The position numbers and the translations under genes are program-made. This document shows, piece after piece, positions 25,892 through 40,158 of a stretch of 60,138 nucleotides of DNA. The number at the start of each line of letters is the position of its first letter. Position 1 is the first letter of the stretch. The notes beneath the pieces are model-generated. The model was not told where the DNA came from, ran no database searches, and saw nothing but the letters and a program-made list of their open reading frames with translations. Source of the DNA: Methanobacteriota archaeon (GTDB lineage Archaea; Thermoplasmatota; DTKX01; VGTL01); contig VGTL01000008.1 of assembly GCA_016874675.1 (NCBI GenBank), positions 1-60,138 on the forward strand. Reading direction: 5' to 3'.

Positions 25892-28725
25892 AATATTCAA
25901 TTGGGAGCCTGGTGAAAGCACGCGACCGGGAATGGGTCGTCCTCCCCGGCTCCGACGATATGGTCATCCTCGTCCAGCCCATCGGCGGCCATCCGGACGA
26001 ATCAACCGGTATCTGCCTGGAAATTGAGAAGGTCGAGCCGGCCAAATTCGATCCTCCCACAGCCGACGAACTCGGCGATTATCTTTCAAGCAGGTTATTG
26101 CGGGATGCCGTCAGATTCGCATCCCGGAATACTTCCGGGCCATTCCGCTCATTCAGTCGAATCAGCATTACGCCACGGCCTTACCAACTAGTTCCCCTGC
26201 TGATAGCATTGCATCAGAACCCGGTGAGGCTACTGATTGCGGACGATGTCGGAATTGGCAAGACCATCGAAGCCAGCCTTATAGCAAGGGAATTGATGGA
26301 CCGGAACGAAATCCAGGGAATGGCGGTTCTTTGCCCGCCGCATCTGGCGGAACAATGGCAAGATGAACTTATCACTAAATTCCATATGGACGCCGAGCTG
26401 GTCCTCCCAAGCACCATAAAACGGCTGGAACGAAATTGTGCCCCGGGCGAATCCATTTTCACACGATTCCCCTTCGTCGTCATAAGCATGGATTATATAA
26501 AAACCGACAAGAACCGGCACGAGTTCATCAGGAATTGTCCCGAGTTTGTCATAGTCGACGAGGCCCACACTTGCGCCTGGGTCGAGGGCGAAGGCCGCGG
26601 CCGGCATCAGCGGCATGAACTAGTCAAGGCCATCTCGGAAAAAGAAGACCGGCATATAGTCCTGGTCACGGCAACCCCGCATAGCGGTCACGAGGACACA
26701 TTCCGTTCTTTGCTTGTTTTCCTGAACCCTGCCCTGAAGGATCTCCCTTCGAACCTTTCGGGAGACGAGAATATCACCAATCGCCGGAGTCTCGCCCGTC
26801 ATTTCATCCAACGGAGAAGAGCCGATATCCGGTCCTACCTTAAGACCGAGACCCCTTTTCCGGACCGTCAAGAATCCGACTTCTCCTATGAATTATCAAA
26901 ACCCTACAGGACCCTGCGAGACAAGATATTGACCTATGCCTTGGAAACCATCCAGAACGAGAAGGGCAAGAAAGAACAGCGAATCCGATGGTGGAGCCTT
27001 CTCGCGTTGTTAAGATGCTTCGCCTCGAGCCCGGCCGCACTTGCATCCACCCTGAGAAGCCGGGCCGGGGTCGCCGATGCCGAAACCCCCGAGGACGCAG
27101 ATCATATCGGCGAAAGCACCGTTTTGGACCAGGAGATCGTCGAGGAGGCCGAAGGAATCGATGTCGCGCCCGGCGGAGACCCGGACATCAATAAGGATGA
27201 GCGCCGCCAACTTCTGGAAATGGCCCGGGAAGCCGAATCCCTCGAAGGGGAGGGAGACAACAAATTACTAAAGATAGTCCCGGTCGTCAAGGACCTCATA
27301 AAGGATGGTCATCAACCGATAATCTTCTGCCGGTTCATCCCGACCGCTGATTATGTCGCCGGGGAGCTTAGCTCTCGTTTGCCGAAGGACGTGAATGTCA
27401 TGAGCGTCACCGGCGTCCTTCCACCAGCAGAAAGGGAAGCCAGAATCGATGACCTGGCCAAGGCTCCAAAACACGTCCTTGTCGCCACGGATTGTCTCAG
27501 TGAGGGCATCAATCTCCAAGACGTGTTCGATGCCGTAATCCACTACGACCTTTCCTGGAACCCGACCCGTCATGAACAACGGGACGGCAGAATAGACAGG
27601 TTCGGCCAGAAGAAAAAATTGACACGAAGCATAACCTATTATGGCAAGGATAACGGAATCGACGGAATCGTTCTCGATGTCCTGTTGCGGAAACACCAGG
27701 CCATCCGCAAGAGCCTTGGAATCAGCGTTCCGGTGCCTATGAACTCCAACGTGGTCCTGAAGGCCATCATGGAAAGCATTCTCATGAGGAAAGGAAGGCT
27801 CCCCGATCAGGCCACACTGGAGCAGTTCGGCCTTTCCGAGAGCGACAGAGCGCTTCGAAACGATCTGAACCTCCAATGGGAAAACGCCAAAGAACGCGAG
27901 AAACGCTCCCGGACGATGTTCGCCCAGGAATCCATACGACCCGAAGAAGTCCAATCCGAATTGGAGGAAGCCGTCGAGGGCGCCGGCAGCTCGGAGGAGC
28001 TGAAAAGCTTCGCCACCCTCGCATTGAAGCTGTACGGCGGCACGATCAAGGAAAAGGGCGAATCCTTCGAAATCGACATCCGGGGAACCCCGCAGGCATT
28101 GAAGGATTCCCTGCGTGAGTTCCTTGGAGGAAAAGACACCTTCAAAGCCAGGTTTGAATATCCTCCGGAGGAAGACGAGCTCTGGCTCACGCGAGCCCAT
28201 CCGATTTCAGAATCCATCTCCACCTTCGTCATGGACTCGGCCTTGGACCCGCAAGGCGATAAATCCAAAGCCCGCCGCGCCGGTGTCATACGAACCAAGG
28301 CCGTCCCAACGAGGACAACCCTCCTCGTTCTCAGGTACAGGTTCAACCTCGTTTCCAAGGACGCATCTTCCGAGGCGAAGATGCTGGTCGAGGAAAGCCG
28401 GGTCCTGGCCTTCCGGGGAAGTCCGGAAAACGCCGAATGGCTTCCAGAAGAGGAGGCCCTCCGGCTATTGACCATTAATCCGGACCAAAATATCACTCCG
28501 GACATATCACGAGTGCAGATTCAGACGATCTTGGATAAATTTGATCAACTTTCAGCCCATCTGAATGATGAAGCCGCCAAACGGGCCGCCCATATCCTGA
28601 GATCGCATAACCGGGTCCGGAAGGCAACCAAGATCAAGAGAACCGTCCAGACGGTCGAACCGCACACCCCACCCGACATTCTCGGTGTCTATGTCTTCCT
28701 CCCAGTCCAGGAGGCAGGACAATGA
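25888..28725 (+). CDS. SNF2-family helicase, DrmD-like
   Basis: Product of 945 residues; ATG 25888 overlaps the previous stop as ATGA. The N-terminal about 80 residues (GSLVKARDREWVVLPG) form a small beta-rich domain common in RapA/DrmD-type proteins. ATPase motifs: DDVGIGKTIEASLIA (about 118), VDEAHTCAW (about 224), TATPHSGHED, and in the second lobe LSEGINLQDVFDAVIHYDLS with EQRDGRIDRFGQ (about 536-575). The C-terminal 350 residues are helical and charged with no clear enzyme. In class 1 DISARM an SNF2-like protein (DrmD) acts with the methylase. It probably couples DNA translocation to recognition of unmodified DNA. Confidence 0.85.
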   Translation: MKYSIGSLVKARDREWVVLPGSDDMVILVQPIGGHPDESTGICLEIEKVEPAKFDPPTADELGDYLSSRLLRDAVRFASRNTSGPFRSFSRISITPRPYQLVPLLIALHQNPVRLLIADDVGIGKTIEASLIARELMDRNEIQGMAVLCPPHLAEQWQDELITKFHMDAELVLPSTIKRLERNCAPGESIFTRFPFVVISMDYIKTDKNRHEFIRNCPEFVIVDEAHTCAWVEGEGRGRHQRHELVKAISEKEDRHIVLVTATPHSGHEDTFRSLLVFLNPALKDLPSNLSGDENITNRRSLARHFIQRRRADIRSYLKTETPFPDRQESDFSYELSKPYRTLRDKILTYALETIQNEKGKKEQRIRWWSLLALLRCFASSPAALASTLRSRAGVADAETPEDADHIGESTVLDQEIVEEAEGIDVAPGGDPDINKDERRQLLEMAREAESLEGEGDNKLLKIVPVVKDLIKDGHQPIIFCRFIPTADYVAGELSSRLPKDVNVMSVTGVLPPAEREARIDDLAKAPKHVLVATDCLSEGINLQDVFDAVIHYDLSWNPTRHEQRDGRIDRFGQKKKLTRSITYYGKDNGIDGIVLDVLLRKHQAIRKSLGISVPVPMNSNVVLKAIMESILMRKGRLPDQATLEQFGLSESDRALRNDLNLQWENAKEREKRSRTMFAQESIRPEEVQSELEEAVEGAGSSEELKSFATLALKLYGGTIKEKGESFEIDIRGTPQALKDSLREFLGGKDTFKARFEYPPEEDELWLTRAHPISESISTFVMDSALDPQGDKSKARRAGVIRTKAVPTRTTLLVLRYRFNLVSKDASSEAKMLVEESRVLAFRGSPENAEWLPEEEALRLLTINPDQNITPDISRVQIQTILDKFDQLSAHLNDEAAKRAAHILRSHNRVRKATKIKRTVQTVEPHTPPDILGVYVFLPVQEAGQ

Positions 28726-31700
28726 AAGGCAAAAGCCGGGACATCTTCACCACAATCCATACCGAAGGCGGGCTTTTACCATCGGGCCTGCTCCAACGCA
28801 TCCTCGAGCAGGACAGAGACCTCGGAGGTCTCACCTTCAAGGATTACCATCTCGACGAAGGCTTGAGGCTTCAGGACGCCACCACAAACTCCTGGAACCG
28901 CCTTGTCAAGGCCTGGTCCAACTTCCAAGAAAGCCTTGAAAAGCTCCCCGAAACCGACCTCGGCACCACCGTCACCCGTGAGAGATGGCTCTTGATCCTT
29001 TTCGATGAATTGGGCTACGGTCGCCTGCCACCTCATAAATCCGCCCTGCAAGTCCAAGGCAAGGACTACCCGATAAGCCACCATTGGGACCATTCCCCAA
29101 TCCACCTCGTCGGCGCCAGGGTCGACATGGACAAGCGAACCCCGGGGGTCGCAGGGGCCGCAAGAGCCAGCCCCCACGGGATGGTCCAGGACTACCTCAA
29201 CCGAAGCGAGGAGGACCTCTGGGGCTTCGTCAGCAACGGCCTGAAGCTCCGAATCCTGCGGGACAATGTCAGCTTGACCCGGGCGGCCTATGTAGAGTTC
29301 GACCTCGAAAGCCTGATGAAGAGCGAGGCCTACAGCGATTTCGTCATCCTATGGCTCGTCTGCCATCAATCCAGAGTGGAGGCCGATCCCCCGGAATCCT
29401 GCTGGCTCGAAAAATGGATGAACATAGCTCAGGAGCAAGGTACAAGAGCTCTTGATCAACTACGTTTGGGAGTTGAAAATGCCATTCAGATACTTGGTCA
29501 AGGTTTTCTCTCTCATCCAAACAATAAAATCCTAATAGAGAAACTAAGATCTGGTACCTTATCACCCCAGGAGTATTATCGCCAACTATTACGGCTTATC
29601 TATCGTTTAATCTTCCTATTTGTAACTGAGGATCGAAATCTACTTCTTAAACCAGATATACTTCGTGAAACCCGGTGGCGATACGATCAATATTATTCCA
29701 TGAAAAGATTGCGTGAACTTGTAAGAAGACATAGAGGTACTCGTCATGTTGATGCATATCATTCTTTGCGTATCGTAATGATGGGTCTTCGTAGCAATAC
29801 TGGATTACCAACTGTTGGATTGTCTCCATTAAATAGCTTTCTCTGGTCTGACGAGACGATACCTGACATTGAAAATTGTTTGATTAATAACCAATTCTTA
29901 TTCGAAGCCATTCGTAAATTGGTATTTATAACACAGAAAGATGTTCTTCTTCCGATCGATTTTAAAAATCTTGGTACTGAAGAATTAGGTAGCGTCTATG
30001 AATCGTTGCTTGAATTACATCCAATAATAGATATTGATACCGGAACCTTTGAGCTAAAAACCGCGGCAGGCCATGAACGGAAAACTACAGGTAGTTATTA
30101 TACCCCTGCATCACTCATTACATCTCTTTTAGATTCTGCTCTTGAACCAGTTCTAAAGGAAGCTATAAGTAAACCTGACTCTGAAAAAGCCATCCTAGCA
30201 CTCAAAGTATGTGATCCAGCTGCTGGAAGTGGACATTTCTTAATAGCTGCTGCTCATCGTATCGCAAAAAAGCTTGCATTAATACGAACAGGTGAAATAG
30301 AGCCGTCTCCTGAAGAATTTCGCAAAGCGCTTAGAGATGTCATTGGGCATTGTATTTATGCGGTTGATATTAATCCAATGGCTGCTGAATTATGCAAGGT
30401 GGCTCTTTGGTTAGAGGCAATGGAACCTGGAAAACCATTAACTTTTCTTGAACATCATATTCAAGTAGGTAATAGTCTTCTTGGTACAAATCCCGCATTG
30501 ATAAAAGAAGGTATTCCGGATACTGCGTTTAAGCCTATTGATTGCGACAATAATGAAATTGTAAAAGGTTTATTGAAGCTAAATAGAATGGCCCATAAAG
30601 GGCAAACGAGCATAGAGCAATGGAATATGGAGAATTCCCAAAATAATCTAGTTGAAATTTCTTCTTTAATCATAAGATTAGATAAAATGGCGGATAATTC
30701 TGTTAAGGATATTCATAATAAAACCATTGCATATCAAAGATTATTAGAGTCTGTCGAGTATAAAAGGGAACTATTATTGGCAGATTCATGGTGTGCAGCT
30801 TTTTTTTGGAAAAAGGATGGAAATTCAAAATATGCATTAACTGAAGATATATTTCGTTTAATTAAGCAGAGTCCAAATAAGGTACCTAATGAAATATATA
30901 AAGAAATAAAATCGATAAAAGACCAGTTTCAATTCTTTCATTGGTATCTAGCATTTCCAGATATTTTCATAAAGTCATCTCTAAGCGAGGAGACTGAAAA
31001 TAAAAACACTGGGTTAAGTGGTGGATTTGATGTAATTATCGGTAACCCTCCATGGGAAAGAATAAAACTTCAAGAAAAAGAATATCTCTCGTCAAGATCA
31101 TCTGAAACATCTGACACATATGATAGTATATCCAGAGAAAATGTAATAAAAAGTGATGCTGCTGTATATAAGGATTTTATACTGTTGAGGGGAAAAAAAT
31201 TACGTGAGAAACATTTTCTCTCAGAGTCTGGAGTATATCCATTATGTGGCTCGGGAGATTTAACGACATATGCGCTTTTTCCGGAATTATTTATTAATAT
31301 ATTAAACCAAAAAGGACAAGCTGGGTTTATTACTCAGACGCAATTGATAACTGAAAAATCATATTCCCGTTTAACTAAATATTTACTTGAATCGCAACAA
31401 ATAATATCTTGTTATGCATTTGAAAATGAACGGTTAATATTTCCTTCGGCACATCATTCAACAAGATTTATTCTATTAAGTATTGGAAAAAAGTGTTATA
31501 AATTTCCTTGTGCAATGGGATTATGGGATATTGAATGGCTAACTGATATAAGAAGAATTTATGAATTAACAAAAGAGGATATTATCAGATTCAATCCAAT
31601 TACTAATAGTATACCTCAATTTCGTACAAAGAATGATGCAAAAATTGCTATTTCAATTTATAATGAATTTTCTCCCTTAAAAAATAAAACTATATTTCGA

Positions 31701-32741
31701 AGTCCTATTTCTGTTAGCCGTGTTATGCATGATAAAGATGATCGTGAAGCTTTCATATGGGGAGTCGATTCAATACAACAAAAAGATACATTACCCATTC
31801 TTGAATCGAAAGTTATCGAACAATATAATCACAGATATGCTTCTTATAAGGATGTTAAAACGATTGATATTAAAAAAGGGTATCCAAGAATATTGATGGA
31901 TGAAGATTTAAAGAATCCAGAAATTTCCAGTATTCCTCGAAAGTGGGTCCGGTTACAAGATACACCGAAACGCTTTTTTAATTATCCTTATCGCTGGATC
32001 CTTCATGTTCGGAATATCACAAATAATATTGCTATACGCACAGTAATTGCAGCCATTACCCCAAAATATCCAAATACAGGTAGTTGTCAATGGATTCGGA
32101 ATGATAATTATTCAGTTGATGATTATCTGTATTTATTAGCGATGCTAAATTCTATTCCTTTCGATTACTTAGCGAGGCAAAAAGTGGGTGGGATTCATCT
32201 TAATTCATATCATTTATATCAAATACCACTACCCGATTTTCCATCAGAACAATATAATTCATTTCATACAATTTTATGTCGACACGCCTTCGAATTATCA
32301 TATACTTCAAATGATTTGATGGCGTTTGCTAATGATTGTGATTATTATAATGAGCATAAACAGGTATATCCACCTTTTGAATGGAATTCAAAAAGGCGAC
32401 ATTTGTTAAAATGTGAAATTAATGCAATCTCAGCCATATTATATAATCTTAATCAACAAAATTTTGAATGGGTTCTAGATCCAGAATATCCAGGCGAAAC
32501 CTTTCGCGTTTTAAAAGAAACAGAGAATAAAGATTTTAACCAATATCAAACAAAAACCGATTCATTAAGCTATTTTATTGAAATCCAGAAAGCAATATCT
32601 GAACAACATATTTACACGTCAAGAATTCCGAAAATAAGAGATGATGAAATATTATATAGAATATTTAATAAGAACAATATTGAAAAACGAAGGAAAGAAA
32701 AGAAAATTCATTCTATAGATGGCAATTGGGACTCATCATAG
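28722..32741 (+). CDS. N6-adenine DNA methyltransferase (Eco57I/PglX/DrmMI type), mosaic gene
   Basis: Product of 1339 residues; ATG 28722 overlaps the previous stop. The SAM-binding motif CDPAAGSGHFLIAAA (about 497) follows SYYTPASLI; AVDINPMAAELCKVALW is the acidic motif, and the catalytic NPPW lies in VIIGNPPWERI (about 775). This makes it a gamma-type adenine methylase with a long target-recognition C-terminus. In BREX and DISARM such enzymes mark self DNA. Residues 1 to about 234 are encoded in GC-rich DNA like the preceding genes, while the rest is strongly AT-rich with different codon use, switching within about 30 bases near 29430. That suggests the catalytic and recognition part was replaced by recombination. 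Confidence 0.88.
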   Translation: MKGKSRDIFTTIHTEGGLLPSGLLQRILEQDRDLGGLTFKDYHLDEGLRLQDATTNSWNRLVKAWSNFQESLEKLPETDLGTTVTRERWLLILFDELGYGRLPPHKSALQVQGKDYPISHHWDHSPIHLVGARVDMDKRTPGVAGAARASPHGMVQDYLNRSEEDLWGFVSNGLKLRILRDNVSLTRAAYVEFDLESLMKSEAYSDFVILWLVCHQSRVEADPPESCWLEKWMNIAQEQGTRALDQLRLGVENAIQILGQGFLSHPNNKILIEKLRSGTLSPQEYYRQLLRLIYRLIFLFVTEDRNLLLKPDILRETRWRYDQYYSMKRLRELVRRHRGTRHVDAYHSLRIVMMGLRSNTGLPTVGLSPLNSFLWSDETIPDIENCLINNQFLFEAIRKLVFITQKDVLLPIDFKNLGTEELGSVYESLLELHPIIDIDTGTFELKTAAGHERKTTGSYYTPASLITSLLDSALEPVLKEAISKPDSEKAILALKVCDPAAGSGHFLIAAAHRIAKKLALIRTGEIEPSPEEFRKALRDVIGHCIYAVDINPMAAELCKVALWLEAMEPGKPLTFLEHHIQVGNSLLGTNPALIKEGIPDTAFKPIDCDNNEIVKGLLKLNRMAHKGQTSIEQWNMENSQNNLVEISSLIIRLDKMADNSVKDIHNKTIAYQRLLESVEYKRELLLADSWCAAFFWKKDGNSKYALTEDIFRLIKQSPNKVPNEIYKEIKSIKDQFQFFHWYLAFPDIFIKSSLSEETENKNTGLSGGFDVIIGNPPWERIKLQEKEYLSSRSSETSDTYDSISRENVIKSDAAVYKDFILLRGKKLREKHFLSESGVYPLCGSGDLTTYALFPELFINILNQKGQAGFITQTQLITEKSYSRLTKYLLESQQIISCYAFENERLIFPSAHHSTRFILLSIGKKCYKFPCAMGLWDIEWLTDIRRIYELTKEDIIRFNPITNSIPQFRTKNDAKIAISIYNEFSPLKNKTIFRSPISVSRVMHDKDDREAFIWGVDSIQQKDTLPILESKVIEQYNHRYASYKDVKTIDIKKGYPRILMDEDLKNPEISSIPRKWVRLQDTPKRFFNYPYRWILHVRNITNNIAIRTVIAAITPKYPNTGSCQWIRNDNYSVDDYLYLLAMLNSIPFDYLARQKVGGIHLNSYHLYQIPLPDFPSEQYNSFHTILCRHAFELSYTSNDLMAFANDCDYYNEHKQVYPPFEWNSKRRHLLKCEINAISAILYNLNQQNFEWVLDPEYPGETFRVLKETENKDFNQYQTKTDSLSYFIEIQKAISEQHIYTSRIPKIRDDEILYRIFNKNNIEKRRKEKKIHSIDGNWDSS

Positions 32742-32987
32742 TGTTCGAGCTATTGAGTCTATCTTTACAATTTGGACTGCACCCAATTTCGTCAACTCCC
32801 AGACTAATTACTTTTAGGTAGGAGGTTAGGCATGGACGGAACCCCTGAAAATGGATAACAAGTCAAAATGGACAAACATGAGTAGTTCAGTTTAGGGATT
32901 TCTAATGCTACGCGAATGCATTCGGCATTGGATTACATATACCTTACTTAATTTGAAAAAAGGCGACAGTTTGATAAGGTCGCTAAT
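32742..32987. other. AT-rich intergenic region after the defence operon
   Basis: No gene seen. It contains TAGGAGGTTAGGC followed by an ATG (32833) that opens only eight codons, probably a relic of a gene start. Confidence 0.4.
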
Positions 32988-33158
32988 CTATAAATCTATG
33001 TGGAGGGGTTCACACCACACCAAAACCCTCCTCGTCTCCCCATCAACCATCCACTCCACCGTTGTCCTGACCGCAATCCCCAGCAACTCAGCGATCTCCT
33101 CTGGTATCGTCGACCTCACACTCCGTGGAACATCATTCTGCTAAAAAGCAGTCATCAT
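32988..33158 (-). pseudogene. Decayed copy of the AbrB-like gene
   Basis: On the minus strand the codons read QNDVPRSVRSTIPEEIAEL, then LLGI and TTVEWMVDGETRR, closely matching the intact AbrB-like protein at 34159-34344 (QNDVSRSVRSTIPEPIAVL). The Arg codon before QND (AGG in the intact copy) is TAG here, and the region upstream has a further TGA in frame. The tail also runs on into CEPLHIDL. So this is a dead duplicate, 1.1 kb from the intact gene. Confidence 0.75.
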
Positions 33159-33243
33159 GTAAACTGGTCAGGAGGACTCTGAGAAAATAGCTAGATATAC
33201 ATTTATGGAACCTGTTAAATAGTAGACAAGAGATTTCTTACAC

Positions 33244-34152
33244 ATGGAATGTCACCAAGCAAGAGGATATTTCCTAGAAGGAATAGTACAAACATGGTTG
33301 CAGGAATCTGGTTTTCTTGAGGTCAAACATGGTAAAGTTCGTGGCAGATCAACAGACCATGAAATTGATGCTTATGGTATCTCATCATTCAATCTACCCT
33401 TTATCTATCCTATTAAATTACTAACAGAAGCAAAATGGCACACATATTCCAATCAACACGACAGACATATAGGCCCTGATGTAGTAAGGAACTTTTTCGG
33501 AAAAATCATTGACATAGACCAAAACTATTTTCGAAGGAAAAGAAGCAGTATGAAAATGCGTTATCTGCATCATGGAGCGATTTTTTCTGTGACACCTTTT
33601 TCATCCGGTGCACAGGAGTTCGCATGGGGCCATGGAATTTACCTTATTCCGTTAGGTGGATATACAATTTTACGAAAATTCTTAGAACAGGCCCTATCGA
33701 CGTTCCAGAAGCATTTCATTTCATCCAAACATCAAGATGATCTTTATACCAAGGCAAAATGCAGAAAACTTGGAAGAAAAATAGCAAAAGAAAAAAATCA
33801 GGATCTCTATTTTTATTCTGGCATTCTAAATCAACACGATTATGTTTTTATTGTCGCTAATCAAGAATTTTATTTTCAACCTGATACAGATCTAATAACC
33901 GAAAACCCGATTGCATCAAAAGATTTTCGCTTACCTGGAGAAGAAAGACTAGAAACACTATTCCATTTTTCGATTCCTGGAAGTGAGTTTGAGATATGCT
34001 TACCAAGATATCAATCTGATAAAATAATTAAATCAATAAAGCGAACACGTCCGGGAAATCAATTTGCTTTTATAGATATTCCAATGAATATTCTAGCCAA
34101 TGGAAAAGCCGTCCGAAGATTATTTAGAATAAAGCTAGCATTGCCGGATTAG
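33244..34152 (+). CDS. Restriction endonuclease-like protein (PD-(D/E)xK, Mrr-like)
   Basis: Product of 302 residues, ATG 33244. The N-terminal region has GYFLEGIVQTWLQESGFLEV, then GRSTDHEIDAYG and LLTEAKWH: an E-(x)n-D-(x)n-ExK arrangement typical of Mrr-type nucleases, with Asp in EIDAYG and Glu/Lys in TEAKW. The second half (residues 150-302) has no clear domain and may recognise DNA. The gene is as AT-rich as the 3' part of the methylase before it, so both may have arrived together. It probably contributes the cutting activity that the DISARM-like operon lacks in the form of a separate nuclease, but this link is inferred. Confidence 0.7.
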   Translation: MECHQARGYFLEGIVQTWLQESGFLEVKHGKVRGRSTDHEIDAYGISSFNLPFIYPIKLLTEAKWHTYSNQHDRHIGPDVVRNFFGKIIDIDQNYFRRKRSSMKMRYLHHGAIFSVTPFSSGAQEFAWGHGIYLIPLGGYTILRKFLEQALSTFQKHFISSKHQDDLYTKAKCRKLGRKIAKEKNQDLYFYSGILNQHDYVFIVANQEFYFQPDTDLITENPIASKDFRLPGEERLETLFHFSIPGSEFEICLPRYQSDKIIKSIKRTRPGNQFAFIDIPMNILANGKAVRRLFRIKLALPD

Positions 34153-34476: not shown

Positions 34477-35052
34477 ATGTACGCAAGCAACATCCCAGGA
34501 ACCATCATCGAGCGCCCGACACTCGACCGCCCCCTCCGTTCAGCCCGTGTCCGCCAAGCCCTCCGACTCTGGCTTTCCATGTACCGGCTGAACAAAATCA
34601 TGGAAGCTCTTGCCGCCCAAAATCCAGCGATTGCCCGTAACCCTCAGCCTGCCCGCGTTCAACAATCATATCCCCCCAATCCATCCAATCAAGCCACCTT
34701 CCACGACTGGCTCCACCACGCCTCCTTGACCGTCTTCCAGTCCGAACGTCGGCCACACGGGCCTATCTTCCCAATCGACCCCCCAACCGTGAAGGGATTG
34801 ACTACCTATGGCGCTAGATGCGGGACCACGAAGTTCTACGCCGCCTGGGTGGAGTGGTCAGGAACATTCTTGGGTTGGATGCGTGTCCAACCACAGGTAA
34901 TTGGGGTGGAATCGGACTACGCGGTTGGGGAAGTCCTTGAACGGCCATTGTTCAGGGGGATAACTATAGATCTCAGCGGGCATGACGCTCTAGACCGGTT
35001 CTCCGCAGCGTTGAGGAGTGCGGCCTGGGATTTGGGGGTGGCTGGCGGATAA
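34477..35052 (+). CDS. Hypothetical protein whose 3' end is duplicated next to the XPD-like helicase
   Basis: Product of 191 residues. ATG 34477 has AAGGAGGT about 10 bases upstream. The N-terminus (TIIERPTLDRPLRSARVRQA) is basic and helical; the middle is rich in Asn, Pro and Gln; the C-terminal 40 residues (RPLFRGITIDLSGHDALD, then AAWDLGVAGG) are repeated as a gene fragment at 37550-37667. The two copies differ mainly at third codon positions, and the stop is kept as TAA in one and TGA in the other, so this end is under protein-level selection. No family recognised. It sits opposite an AbrB-like gene, so a toxin-antitoxin-like pair is possible but unproven. Confidence 0.65.
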   Translation: MYASNIPGTIIERPTLDRPLRSARVRQALRLWLSMYRLNKIMEALAAQNPAIARNPQPARVQQSYPPNPSNQATFHDWLHHASLTVFQSERRPHGPIFPIDPPTVKGLTTYGARCGTTKFYAAWVEWSGTFLGWMRVQPQVIGVESDYAVGEVLERPLFRGITIDLSGHDALDRFSAALRSAAWDLGVAGG

Positions 35053-35330
35053 ACGCGATAGCTGGCGCCAGAGCGCCGGCACCGGTTTGCTTCGAGCAGC
35101 CCGCAAAGCAGTTTCCCCGGCGGCGGACCGCCGGGAACGGTAGGCTTCGGGACCAACAACAGGCCCCAAGCAAGCTCCTTGTCGGCCGGGGATGGGAACA
35201 AACCGAAGCGCTGGGGGGTCGAAATCCTCCCACCAGACCCCTCTGTTTCGTATGTTGCCGTCGTCAATCTTTCATGTCGTGCGCGAGCCGAGGACAAGCG
35301 GTCAGCTTGTCCGAGGCGAGCGCCCCGCCT
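34932..35330 (+). repeat. Hairpin-array repeat, copy A (uninterrupted)
   Basis: This block starts in the 3' end of the 34477 gene and continues about 280 bases past its stop. Three stem-loops stand out: GCTGGCGC/GCGCCGGC (35061-35080), CCCGGCGG/CCGCCGGG (35116-35135) and GGACAAGC/GCTTGTCC (35292-35312). Copy B at 37550-37725 plus 39687-39905 has the same hairpins at the same places, the third with an almost wholly different but still complementary stem. No plausible protein is encoded after the stop. Confidence 0.75.
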
Positions 35331-35455
35331 GTATATTCGGTGGCGAGCCTTCCAGAGGGGTTGTTCGGACCTACCCGATCTCCACCTGCGGAGATTGTTT
35401 CCTGCACGGGCGGCCAATCGATTCGGAGGGGGCCCGATCATTTACCCCGCATCAT

Positions 35456-37465
35456 CTATCCTTTCCGGAAAAAGCCCCTTACCTTGCCGACAAGTTCCTC
35501 GACATCTCCGATCATCCCGGGCCGCATCTCGGGCGGCAGGAACGATGAATACCGCGGCCCCGCGAACCTTTCGTCCAGCAGGACGATGACGCCCCGGTCC
35601 TTTTCGGAACGGATGAGCCGCCCGGCGCTCTGGACGACCTTGTTCATCGCCGGGGCGATGTAGCCGTACAGGTTCCCGGCCCCCTCGCCGAACCGCGCCG
35701 AGAAATGGCCCATCAGGGCCCTCACCTCCAGGTTGGGCGGCGCAAGGGGCATTCCGGCCACGGCGATGATCGACAGTATGTTCCCCTCGTAATCGATGCC
35801 CTCGCTGAGGCCGCCACCCTGCACCGCGAGCAGAAGCTGGCCCCCTTTCGGGTCGTGCAGCCTTTCAACTATTCCGGCACGGTCCCGCTTGCCCATCGAC
35901 CGGGACTCGACGACGATGTCCCTGCCCCGTATCCCCGCTCCCATCCGGGAGGCGACCTCCTCCAGGAACCTGTAGGACGTGAAGAACGCCGCCACATTGC
36001 CCCTGACCGCCAGGGAAAGCGCCGTGATGGCGGCGGCATACCGGCCGTACATGGCCGCGTCCCGGCGGGTGTACTGCGTCGTGAGCCCGCCAAGGCCCAG
36101 GACGAGCCGGTTCTCCCTGGGAAAGGGCGATTCGTAGATTCTCTCGACCCTCCGTTCGGGGGGCACTCCCAGCATGTCGGCGTACATCCCGGGCGGGACC
36201 AGCGTCCCGGACATGAGCACCGCCGCCCCCACCTCGGCTAAGACCGGCCCGGCGGCGGTCTCGGCCTCGAGATATGCGATCCGGAGCGCCCAGGAGCCGT
36301 CCTCGTTTTTGGAAAATATCCGCGCCACGCCGGAGCCGCCCGACCTCCAGGCGTCCAAAAAATCCCCAAGCTCCATCGCGAACGACCGCTCGGCGCCCGA
36401 CTTCAGCACGCCCTCGCCCGTTTCCCGGAGCCAGGAGACATACCGGTCCATATCGTCCTTCTGGCCCAGGACCTCCGAAAAGGCGCTTTCAAGCACATCC
36501 TCGAGCGCATCCTTCCCGACGTATTCCTCGGCGCCCGGGAGAAGCTTCGAGGCGCGCCCGTCCAGCCAGCGCCTGAGCGCCTTCGTGTAGCGCGCCCCGC
36601 GGGCGCTCTTGCCGCCGATCTCCACCATCGCCTGCTCCAGCTCGTACGAGGTCCTCCTCAGGCTGAGATTCGACCGTATCCTGTCCGGCAGGTTGTGGGA
36701 TTCATCGACGACGAGCAGCACCCCGGAAAGGCCCTTGCCCGCTTCGGCGAGAATGGGCCCCGCTATGCCATCGAAGATGTAGTTGTAGTCGCACACCACG
36801 ACATTGGCGTCGCCCATCGCCTCCTGGGCCGCCTTGTGGGGGCAGAAGCCGGCGCGAACGCAAGCCCTCTGCAATTCGTGGACGTGCATTATCCGCTTGA
36901 ATATCAATCCCGCGGCCTCGCCGGCCGGACGCTGCTCGTAGGGGCACGATCGGCTCTTGGTCCGGGCCTTGCACATCTCGCGAAAGGCGTAGGCGGGCTG
37001 GGCCGAGGCGGTGTCGGGGCACATGGACTGCCTGGATATGATGTCGACGGCCCTGATGCGCCGTCCGGAGAATCGCTCGACCGTCCGGAGCGTGTCGATC
37101 ACTATGGTGTGCTGGCTCTGTTTCGAGGTCACGAAGAATACGACCCTGTCGCCGCCAAGGGCGTCCTCGAGCATGGCGGAGAGCGTCGCGACGGTCTTTC
37201 CTATCCCGGTCGGCGCCTGTGCCAGGAGCACCTTGCCGCTGGCGACGGCCTGCCGGATGTCCTCCATGAACTCGCGCTGGCCGCCACGTATCCTGTCGTA
37301 CGGGAAGAACGGGAAGTCCGGGTGGCGCGTCGACCCGGAGGCGCTGGCGGCCGACCGGGCGGTCCGGGCCTCGTAGCCGCACCGGCGGCAACGCAGGATC
37401 CTCTCGCCGCCTCGGGAGCTTCGCCCAAGCAGGGCGCTGCATTGGGGGCAGAAGGCTTCGGGCAT
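35456..37465 (-). CDS. XPD/Rad3-like iron-sulfur DNA helicase with N-terminal zinc ribbon
   Basis: Product of 669 residues, ATG 37465. Residues 1-30 hold a zinc ribbon (C6, C9, C26, C29: CPQCSALL and CRRCGYEA). Walker A is QAPTGIGKT (about 82-90); the Walker B box is VVDESHNL (about 252), as in superfamily 2 XPD/DinG helicases. Between them lie spaced cysteines (SMCPDT, EMCKAR, RSCPYE, GFCPHK) of the 4Fe-4S domain that splits duplex DNA. Late motifs include MSGTLVPPGMYADML and KVVQSAGRLIRSEKDRGV. It unwinds DNA 5' to 3' in repair, or in DinG-like roles at R-loops. It is enclosed by the two hairpin-array repeats in direct orientation. Confidence 0.9.
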   Translation of the reverse strand: MPEAFCPQCSALLGRSSRGGERILRCRRCGYEARTARSAASASGSTRHPDFPFFPYDRIRGGQREFMEDIRQAVASGKVLLAQAPTGIGKTVATLSAMLEDALGGDRVVFFVTSKQSQHTIVIDTLRTVERFSGRRIRAVDIISRQSMCPDTASAQPAYAFREMCKARTKSRSCPYEQRPAGEAAGLIFKRIMHVHELQRACVRAGFCPHKAAQEAMGDANVVVCDYNYIFDGIAGPILAEAGKGLSGVLLVVDESHNLPDRIRSNLSLRRTSYELEQAMVEIGGKSARGARYTKALRRWLDGRASKLLPGAEEYVGKDALEDVLESAFSEVLGQKDDMDRYVSWLRETGEGVLKSGAERSFAMELGDFLDAWRSGGSGVARIFSKNEDGSWALRIAYLEAETAAGPVLAEVGAAVLMSGTLVPPGMYADMLGVPPERRVERIYESPFPRENRLVLGLGGLTTQYTRRDAAMYGRYAAAITALSLAVRGNVAAFFTSYRFLEEVASRMGAGIRGRDIVVESRSMGKRDRAGIVERLHDPKGGQLLLAVQGGGLSEGIDYEGNILSIIAVAGMPLAPPNLEVRALMGHFSARFGEGAGNLYGYIAPAMNKVVQSAGRLIRSEKDRGVIVLLDERFAGPRYSSFLPPEMRPGMIGDVEELVGKVRGFFRKG

Positions 37466-37549
37466 GTTGCGGCCGCTGATACGCCGGCATGTTGAAATGA
37501 ATTTCGGCCGGGACCGTGGACCCGTATCGTGGACCTCCCTCGGGAATGT

Positions 37550-37725
37550 CATTGGACGGCCCTTGTTCATGGGGATAACTATAGATCTCAGCGGGCATGA
37601 CGCTCTTGACCGGTTCTCCGCAGCTTTGAGAAGTGCGGCCTGGGATTTGGGGGTGGCTGGCGGATGAACGCGCTAGCCGGCGCCGGGGCGCCGGCACCGG
37701 CTCGCTTCGAGCCGCCCGCAAAGCA
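37550..37725 (+). repeat. Hairpin-array repeat, copy B, left part (gene 3' end fragment and first hairpin)
   Basis: About 175 bases similar to 34932-35110. Bases 37550-37667 still encode RPLFMGITIDLSGHDALD and the rest of the conserved C-terminus up to TGA, but upstream the frame runs antisense into the helicase gene, so it is a 3' fragment. Hairpin GCCGGCGC/GCGCCGGC lies at 37676-37695. The similarity stops exactly at 37725, where the group II intron begins. Confidence 0.8.
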
Positions 37726-37799
37726 GTAGAGTAAAGGAATGGCCTTGCGGCCATTCCCTCCTCATCGAACCGTACGTACCCATTTCGAGTATACGGCTC
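37726..37799 (-). ncRNA. Group II intron domains V and VI
   Basis: Domain V pairs GAGCCGTATAC with GTACGTACGGTTC around a GAAA-containing loop. Domain VI pairs GAGGAGGGAATGGCC with GGCCATTCC-TTT-A-CTC, leaving a single bulged A at 37732 as branch point, then CTCTAC to the splice site. The reverse transcriptase reading frame overlaps domain V and stops at 37762, so domain V bases also code for the last residues (KWVRTVR). Confidence 0.9.
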
Positions 37800-39006
37800 T
37801 CGTCCGGCGTTCCCCATTGCAGGTGGCAGGTTTCTGGGTCCTGAGCGAAACGAGCGAAACGAGATATTCCTCCTCTGGGAGACAACGGGTGATGACACGC
37901 CTGCTCCGCCGTTGGGCCTTGTAGCTCCTTACGCGAGCCCGCGTCCAGCGGTCAAGCAATATAAATGGCTTGACTACGGTCATGTACCCAAAATATCGTC
38001 CCCAGCCACGGATGACAGGATTGATGCCTTCTATGACCATTCGTGCGTTCCTTGGTTGGCATCTCCGGGTCCCGCGTCGTATCGAGTTCTTGTATCTGTC
38101 GATGGCTTTCTTGCTCGGCGCCATTTCGCCCTTGGTGAAGAGGAAGCCAAGAAACTCCCCATAGCACCCATCAGCATTGAAAATCCGGGTCTTCCTCGGG
38201 CTCAATCCCAGCTTCAGTTCCTCGCCAAGGATTCTTTCCGCCGTGCTCAGCGCGTTTTCCGCTTCCTGCCTGCTCTTGCAGAATATCAGGAAATCGTCCG
38301 CGTATCTCAACAGAAGGTATCCTTCCTCGCCCATCCTCCGGTCGAAGTGATTGAGGTAGATGTTCGCCAGCAACGGGGAGATGACGCCGCCCTGCGGCGT
38401 TCCCTCCTCCGTCGCCTCGTAATCCCCATCGGCCATCACTCCGCACTTCAGAAAGGCTTCCAGCAGGTCGAGAACCCTTCCGTCGGCGACTTTCTCCCGT
38501 ACAAGGTCCATCATTATATCGTGGTCCACATGGTCGAAAAATCCCTGTATATCCGCATCGACGAGCCAGTGATAGCCTCTTCCCAGATAGCCCCGGACCT
38601 TTCGCATTGCCTGGTGCGCGTCTTTCCCGGCCCGATACCCGTGGCTCCCTTCGAGGAATATCTCCTCGAATATCGGCTCCAGGATGTCCTTCAGCACTTG
38701 CTGCACCACGCGGTCCTTGACCGTCGGAATCCCCAAGGGTCGCTGTCGCCCGTCCGGCTTGGGAATGTATACCCGTCTGACCGGTTTTGGCCCGTATCGC
38801 CGCTCTTTCAGCAGCCTGCGTATTTCCGCAAGTCCCAGTTCCTTTTGCGCCTCAAAGCCCTCGATGGTCTCCCCGTCGATTCCTCCGGTTCCGTGGTTCG
38901 CCCTGACCTTCTTCCACGCCGCCTCCAAGTTACGCAGGTCCATCAGTTGTCCGCTGAGGGAATGCCACTTGAACTTGTCGTGGTACTTCTCGTTCCATCT
39001 CTTCAT
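37762..39006 (-). CDS. ltrA: Group II intron reverse transcriptase/maturase
   Basis: Product of 414 residues. RT blocks: RRVYIPKPDGRQRPLGIPTV (78-97), LVDADIQGFFDHVDHD (148-163), GTPQGGVISPLLANIYL (202-218) and the catalytic YADD (235-238). The maturase X-domain region follows (FLGFLF, INPVIRGWGRYFGYMTVVK). I see no HNH endonuclease domain, so target priming would rely on existing nicks or replication forks, as in class C introns. The frame is intact from ATG 39006 to TGA 37762 and its end runs through domain V. It promotes splicing of its host RNA and retromobility. Confidence 0.92.
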   Translation of the reverse strand: MKRWNEKYHDKFKWHSLSGQLMDLRNLEAAWKKVRANHGTGGIDGETIEGFEAQKELGLAEIRRLLKERRYGPKPVRRVYIPKPDGRQRPLGIPTVKDRVVQQVLKDILEPIFEEIFLEGSHGYRAGKDAHQAMRKVRGYLGRGYHWLVDADIQGFFDHVDHDIMMDLVREKVADGRVLDLLEAFLKCGVMADGDYEATEEGTPQGGVISPLLANIYLNHFDRRMGEEGYLLLRYADDFLIFCKSRQEAENALSTAERILGEELKLGLSPRKTRIFNADGCYGEFLGFLFTKGEMAPSKKAIDRYKNSIRRGTRRCQPRNARMVIEGINPVIRGWGRYFGYMTVVKPFILLDRWTRARVRSYKAQRRSRRVITRCLPEEEYLVSLVSLRTQKPATCNGERRTRAVYSKWVRTVR

Positions 39007-39686
39007 TCGCTCTCTCCCGTTCCTGCCGGCGTCAGCCTTGGACGGTGTTCCGCTTCGCCGCTCTCCCCAGATGGCGTGTTTGTCCTCATGGCAACTACCC
39101 CGCTGGGTTCTCCTTTCCTTGCGTTATTCCGTTCTTCGGCTTCCGCTCGTTCCAGACCAGGACCCCTTCGCTGGACCGGCTTTTCCCCTCTTACAGTCGC
39201 CCCCTGCGGTCTTTTGGAGCCGCAGGTTCTGCATCTCATCGGCCCGGCCTTCATCGCTACTATGGGTCCATCCGACCCCTGTGGTGGCTTTGCTCCGGTT
39301 TTCCCTTACGGTTATGCCTCGGCTACCTTCGCCCGGGATGCCCCTACCAGGGCGCTTTATTATCTCCGGCCAAAGGACCACGACAGGTCTCCCCCGGTCG
39401 CATCGAAGGGCTTTCGCGACCATCCCGACCGTAATCACCCATCCAGGTTTTATCGCCACTCTAGCTTCCACCGGTAAACGGGGTGTCGCCAGCTGGACGG
39501 GCCACCTCTGGTTCGCTTTCGCTTCGGGCTGGTCACCGATACTCGGGAACTCCGCACCCCGCCTCACGACGGAGCACTTCCCTTTCTCTTCATACGAGAG
39601 TAGCATCGTATGGGGGGATTTGAACCCCGGGTATATTCGTATGTTGCTTATATCCGTTTCTTTCCCTCCCTTGCTTCGGGGCGCGC

Positions 39687-39905
39687 GTTTCCCCGGCGGC
39701 GCACCGCCGGGACTGGTAGGCTTCGAGCCCGGCAAAGCTCCCCAAACAGGCGCTGTGATGGGCAGAGACCGGGCTGCAAACCCCTGCACTGGCACCGTCG
39801 GCGCCTCAACCCGGACCCCGCAACATCGTTCAGTTTCGCCGTCAATCTTTCTTGCCGTGCGCGACCGCAAAGGAGCGCCGTCAGGCGCTCCTTTAGGCGA
39901 GGAAG
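39687..39905 (+). repeat. Hairpin-array repeat, copy B, right part
   Basis: Continues copy B behind the intron: CCCGGCGG/CCGCCGGG (39692-39711) and AAAGGAGCGCC/GGCGCTCCTTT with loop GTCA (39869-39894). Between them is the shared segment GTCAATCTTTC followed by TGCGCGA. A further hairpin (AAGAACCGGT/ACCGGTTCTT, about 39902-39925) lies just beyond and has no counterpart in copy A. Confidence 0.75.
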
Positions 39906-39929
39906 AACCGGTCGCAACCGGTTCTTCCG

Positions 39930-40158
39930 GGGCGAAGGCCGTGCGTTGAGCCCGGCCGGAGCGAGCGCCACGAGGGCTTGATCGGTGGCGCGTCCCGAGA
40001 CGGGGTAACGAAAAACATTCGTACCGATCCAACGCACATTGGACCCATTGAAGATGCCGTCCCTAAAACATCTTCCCCCGAAATGCGGTCTATCTGGACC
40101 AAGAACACCGCTACCTTTGCAATCTGGAGAGAGGCCTATTCTTTACGATACGGCACAA
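39930..40158. other. Intergenic region right of copy B
   Basis: No gene seen. GC content falls at about 40010, which marks the end of the repeat and the start of the AT-richer nuclease-like gene region. Confidence 0.4.

Follow-up and report, generated by a model that had tools for sequence, protein, structure and literature searches.

A dispersed repeat with a covarying core in an archaeal genome, read as a candidate structured RNA of gene 3' flanks

Two arrays of stem-loops stand in the same orientation on either side of a helicase gene in an archaeal genome, and the question arises whether they represent a structured RNA, a folded DNA site or the remains of a transposon. The analysed window of 60,138 nt is contig C8 of a genome of 3.36 Mb in 189 contigs (contig names below refer to this genome). 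Relatives of the helicase were found among Thermoplasmata and other archaeal MAGs, and contig C9 carries an archaeal RNA polymerase A' fragment, so that the genome falls near the Thermoplasmatota. The initial annotation had proposed two copies, here termed A and B, in which pairing rather than sequence is constrained, and had likened them to the guide-RNA regions that follow nuclease genes.

Alignment of A with B bore out the presence of two related copies with the same order of stem-loops. It extends from 34927 to about 35445 in A, and in B it covers 37542-37725 plus 39687 to about 40095, with three ungapped blocks of 186, 82 and 61 nt that are 91%, 74% and 70% identical, respectively (all features are compiled in Table 1). 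The reported change in the first hairpin was also confirmed, as a T-G pair in A (GCTGGCGC/GCGCCGGC) is replaced by C-G in B (GCCGGCGC/GCGCCGGC).

Table 1. Features of the two copies in the window, and the further copies, modules and upstream genes in the genome. Positions are those of the window unless a contig is named; "same" denotes the strand of the element, and distances to upstream genes are approximate.
Feature	Position	Strand	Evidence or remark
191-aa orphan ORF	34477..35052	+	directly upstream of copy A; stop codon abuts element
Element copy A, ~400 nt, non-coding	35051..35445 (right end uncertain)	+	alignment with B, C77, C79, C151 and C131 copies
Copy A hairpin 1, GCTGGCGC/GCGCCGGC	35061..35080	+	fold
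Copy A hairpin 2, CCCGGCGG/CCGCCGGG	35116..35135	+	fold
Copy A RNA core (P1, P2, P3)	35237..35361	+	model R2, RNAalifold, fold z
Copy A third hairpin, GGACAAGC-ggtca-GCTTGTCC	35292..35312	+	
XPD/DinG-like helicase gene	35456-37570	-	between copies A and B
Remnant of 191-aa gene 3' end in copy B	37542..37666	+	protein tail 84% identical
Copy B left part	37664..37725	+	hairpin 1 at 37676-37695; alignment with A
Group II intron, 1,961 bp	37726..39686	-	Rfam RF00029 at 37726-37801; exon junction
Group II intron reverse transcriptase/maturase, 414 aa	37762..39006	-	Pfam, TIGR04416
Copy B right part	39687..40095	+	hairpin 2 at 39691-39711; alignment with A
Copy B RNA core, inserted two-hairpin module included	39815..40006	+	model R2, 75.6 bits
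REP-like two-hairpin module inserted in copy B	39865..39932	+	hairpins 39869-39894 and 39901-39928; fold z -5.28
Copy B true third hairpin, GGCCGTGC-gttga-GCCCGGCC	39937..39957	+	alignments, pair counts
Near-full or partial copies	C77, C79, C151 (four places), C131, C5		
Divergent copies	C105, C9, C135, C122, C163		
AGGCCGAG-hairpin-CTACGG copies	C2, C4 (twice), C10 (twice), C48, C78, C81, C96, C151		
191-aa gene upstream	copy A	same	0 nt from stop codon to element
Zn-motif protein upstream	C131	same	45 nt
Zn-motif protein upstream	C122	same	329 nt, to core
RHH-PIN and DUF2281-PIN upstream (two PIN toxins)	C151	same	~70 nt and ~53 nt, respectively
HTH ORF upstream	C79	same	~49 nt
Unmatched ORF upstream	C163	same	~100 nt
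DarTG upstream	C135	same	~240 nt
TPP enzyme upstream	C105	same	~290 nt
Frameshifted Y1 transposase fragment upstream	C5	same	few hundred nt

Copy B had been presented as a continuous array, but it is in fact split by a group II intron. The insert contains both a domain V and a reverse transcriptase/maturase gene (Pfam RVT_1 3.5e-36 and GIIM 1.2e-11; TIGR04416 390.8 bits at a cut-off of 300), and GCAAAGCA joined to GTTTCCCC at the exon junction gives exactly the intact sequence found in copy A. The combination of RVT_1 and GIIM domains and the insertion next to a stem-loop are shared with group IIC introns (PMC7923331), and the 5' exon has the stem of hairpin 2 and a few further bases at its end. 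Group IIC introns carry CGC in domain V; the domain V of this intron reads GAGCCGTATAC, begins with GAGCCGT and appears AGC-like.

The comparison of the third hairpins had to be corrected. The hairpins that had been compared, that of A around GGACAAGC and that of B around AAAGGAGCGCC, both exist, but the alignment places them at non-homologous positions, and the counterpart of the A hairpin in B is GGCCGTGC/GCCCGGCC. The AAAGGAGCGCC hairpin is not homologous to it and belongs to a separate inserted module of two hairpins. The argument from constrained pairing to a structured RNA thus does not follow from the two hairpins quoted, but it holds at the corrected, homologous positions, as shown below. 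Stem-loops that occupy corresponding positions may therefore be non-homologous if hairpin modules insert into hairpin arrays.

The inserted module has the layout CCGCAAA-hairpin-TTTAGGCGAG-hairpin-CGGGG, the first hairpin being AAAGGAGCGCC/GGCGCTCCTTT and the second GGAAGAACCGGT. Relatives with different, well-paired stems were found at C77:11773, C81:8579 and C9:29624, and ten copies of a related frame, AGGCCGAG-hairpin-CTACGG, form hairpins in the genome, while the matches in 40 relatives do not resemble paired modules. In C77, such a module is placed within the third hairpin's own loop. On the reverse strand, the inserted two-hairpin modules read CCGTAG followed by a palindrome, and a GTAG tag beside a palindrome is the hallmark of GTAG-type REPs (PMC3733652). 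Dispersed two-hairpin modules with a GTAG tag, on the contigs given for the AGGCCGAG-hairpin-CTACGG copies in Table 1, have interchangeable, well-paired stems, and short tandem repeats (aggcgca / gctgcctt) surround several of these insertions. At C9:29614-29745, a two-hairpin module lies beside a tRNA-Ser gene and is flanked by a 14-bp repeat of the tRNA 3' end (CGCCGAGGGGGAGA); possibly, this is an insertion with duplication.

The proposed search for more copies yielded further homologues in the genome. Using DNA searches, nhmmer on the contigs and a first covariance model (R1), about 13 recognisable copies of a non-coding repeat of about 400 nt were found, A and B being two of them; the identity among most copies is about 65–80%. 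The element was absent from the 389 other genomes of a phylum search of 390 genomes with a covariance model and from 40 relatives in a DNA search, and it was not found in plasmids, phages or IMG/VR viral contigs. One match of R1 in the phylum search (genome G057, E 2.4e-5) was treated as chance, as it lies inside an apparent helicase coding region and many pairs are broken. In Rfam, the element stays below every gathering score; the group II intron and a tRNA were the sole features to pass one. The left ends of the copies cluster at a small number of discrete positions (within the gene, at AACGCG and at CAGTTT) and are not random, and random 5' truncation as in retroposition was rejected. A coding origin was also rejected, because the copies differ by single-base length changes, which argue against a coding frame. 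At C77:11394-11510, the right-end fragment of one element abuts the left end of the next, that is, the copies are in tandem.

The core of the element comprises about 125 nt and is made up of three nested helices, P1 (ACCCCG/CGGGGT), P2 (TGCCGTCG/CGGTGGCG) and P3, which is the third hairpin. GA/GA internal loops interrupt the outer stem of P3 (GC-GA-GC opposite GC-GA-GC), and the loop of this hairpin is usually GTYSA. RNAalifold predicted the same three helices unprompted. In copy A, where P1 is ACCCC/GGGGT, P2 has the sequence just given and P3 has the G-A internal loops, the core has a fold z of -4.28 and scores 125.5 bits (E 6.6e-34) against the covariance model R2, which was built with this structure from six copies including A itself.

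The covariation test suggested by the initial annotation was performed with the six well-aligned copies, in which 89% of the cells pair. Eight of the 28 pairs changed on both sides, compared with 3.2 in shuffled alignments and 0–4 with slid partners, and the covariation score was 0.240 versus 0.121 ± 0.021 after shuffling (0/500). Because all copies come from one genome, these covariation counts are not independent events. In a 17-row alignment, changes on both sides were seen in 20 of 28 pairs and the score was 0.318 versus 0.116, but this alignment was fitted to the model and is thus biased upward, and a few of its matches are weak and may be due to chance. Compensatory changes, which are seen in P2 and P3, hence exceed the shuffled expectation.

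The helices were also scored one by one in twelve copies, for which the arms were listed by hand and the 3' arms were shuffled among copies. P3 formed 85 of 96 standard pairs (67.7 ± 3.2 after shuffling, 0/20,000). For P1, which varies little among copies, the values were 76 of 84 pairs and 69.1 ± 2.1 (89/20,000 shuffles). P2 formed 73 of 96 pairs (62.8 ± 3.6; 180/20,000) and, in eight clear copies, 62 of 64 (54.3 ± 2.4; 51/20,000), figures that are flattering, since the register was set by hand and the eight copies were selected once four others had been seen to fit poorly. P2 does not hold in C135 or C122, and its register is shifted in C9. R2 recovered copies that had not been used to build it, namely C151c (E 9e-12), C105 (1e-10), C5 (8e-10), C135 (9e-6), C9 (1e-5) and C122 (5e-5). 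Several of these were not new, as the earlier model R1, which partly overlaps with R2, had already detected them. One copy, C151b, folds no better than shuffled sequences (z +0.66), yet it fits the model best. Taken together, the fold of the core is well supported. The third hairpin by itself can form on either strand. P2 of the eight copies contains 22 G-T pairs and no A-C pair, and the retention of G-T pairs favours an RNA of the plus strand of the window.

Most copies lie 3' of a gene on the same strand, and many of these genes are toxin-antitoxin, defence or orphan genes (Table 1). Family matches and paralogues, rather than full gene calling, served to identify the neighbours, and the strands were tallied by hand. 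C77 is an exception with no same-strand gene before the copy, and for the copy on C9 the nearest same-strand gene, that of RNA polymerase A', is 1.7 kb away. A family of proteins with a Zn motif (CxxC...CPRC) occurs next to copies at C131:869-1597, C5 (52-900) and C122:193-846 and 764-1693; it has no confident Pfam match, and the mutual identity is 33–38% where compared.

With moderate confidence, we read the element as a lineage-specific dispersed repeat that has a structured plus-strand RNA as its core, resides in 3' flanks of accessory genes, has a predicted role at mRNA ends and has spread as a passenger. P1, P2 and the long P3 hairpin would stack into a single nested rod whose internal loops are rich in G and A. 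The putative transcript would be part of the 3' end of the mRNAs of the upstream genes, and the rigid fold may stabilise or process the message, although no archaeal promoter or terminator was established. Spread of such a non-autonomous passenger could have occurred by local duplication and recombination among copies, or by a mobile element acting in trans. Two events probably came later, the insertion of the REP-like two-hairpin module and, next to hairpin 2 in copy B, that of the group II intron.

It is unlikely that the element is instead a relic of a non-autonomous DNA transposon of the MITE or REP/BIME-like type, served by a Y1 transposase in trans, with hairpins that are transposase sites and not RNA. 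The dispersed copies do have unrelated flanks, the modules resemble GTAG-type REPs, and Y1_Tnp genes are present at C71 and C5, the latter near both an element and a GTAG module. However, for the 400-nt element no consistent terminal repeats were seen and no target-site duplication was visible by eye at its ends, which were inspected without an empty site for comparison, and the strand bias of P2 also argues against transposase sites. The Y1 gene at C71 has no flanking modules, and a dedicated Y1 mobiliser was rejected on this ground. For the small module alone, the transposase-site reading may well be right. The inserted modules share with REPs and BIMEs (PMC3733652, PMC2817692) the GTAG tag by a palindrome, the variable stems and the dimeric arrangement, whereas the main element has about ten times their length and a nested multi-helix core, and no dedicated RAYT linkage was shown.

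A folded single-stranded DNA recombination site that ends gene cassettes, similar to attC, is a quite improbable explanation, in which direct-oriented elements would separate toxin-antitoxin and defence cassettes. Three of the four same-orientation copies on C151 flank two PIN toxin-antitoxin cassettes in alternation, and A and B are direct repeats around the helicase gene. The intron lies opposite to the element and beside a stem-loop, as group IIC-attC introns enter attC hairpins in the direction opposite to the cassettes (PMC7923331), and toxin-antitoxin and restriction genes are typical cassettes of archaeal integrons (PMC9668308). The likeness to attC or CALIN arrays thus includes direct-oriented structured repeats behind such genes. 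In contrast to attC sites, the RYYYAAC...GTTRRRY box pair was absent on either strand in the eight copies inspected, and an integron attC site was rejected. In addition, about 400 nt is too long, the wobble pairs of P2 are RNA-like and the helicase gene is opposite to the elements. We regard as slightly more doubtful still a separate archaeal cassette system, unrelated to integron attC, in which mobile accessory genes (toxin-antitoxin, restriction, Zn-motif) would each carry a folded 3' element that is both an mRNA-end structure and an exchange site.

The structured core and the frequent toxin-antitoxin neighbours would also fit a family of independent small RNA genes that regulate these adjoining genes. 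This is very unlikely, as no promoter was shown, and the neighbours also include a TPP-enzyme gene, the 191-aa orphan and the Zn-motif proteins.

The comparison with guide RNAs behind nuclease genes depends on the 191-aa gene. In the genome, it matches only a paralogue at C122:5609 (54%), behind which no element or array was found, and the remnant in copy B. It has no family match in Pfam, NCBIfam, PHROGs, PADLOC or PDB, and no homologue in GTDB species contigs, viral contigs or the 390-genome phylum search. An omega-RNA of a nuclease-bearing transposon of the TnpB/IscB type is hardly credible and largely refuted by gene identity, because, although copy A directly follows the stop codon and copies B and C151a retain 3'-end remnants of that gene, the gene has no nuclease match, there is no array behind its paralogue, and unrelated genes precede most copies.

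Bacterial repeats of this structured, dispersed kind have been well catalogued, and the picture would be widened by an archaeal family in which covariation can be demonstrated. Stem-loop repeat families have been compiled (PMC2267715); bcr1 is from the Bacillus cereus group. The archaeal element would best be read as comparable in kind to bcr1-type repeats, since it is multi-copy, intergenic and lineage-restricted and has a shared predicted secondary structure. Unlike them, it is found in an archaeal host, is longer, has no sequence relation shown or target duplication seen, carries hairpin modules and a group II intron as insertions, and has the identity of about 65–80% among most copies given above. 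The structural model and the copies can serve to ask whether structured 3' flanks travel with toxin-antitoxin and defence genes.

The surroundings of the two copies in the window also contain other genes. Upstream of copy A, at 28722-34152, a type IIG-like methylase/restriction gene is followed by an Mrr-like ORF, forming a defence neighbourhood. About 0.9 kb past copy B, a transposase-like ORF at 40956-42053 matches HTH_32, HTH_29 and HTH_23 above the cut-off and DDE_3 below it.
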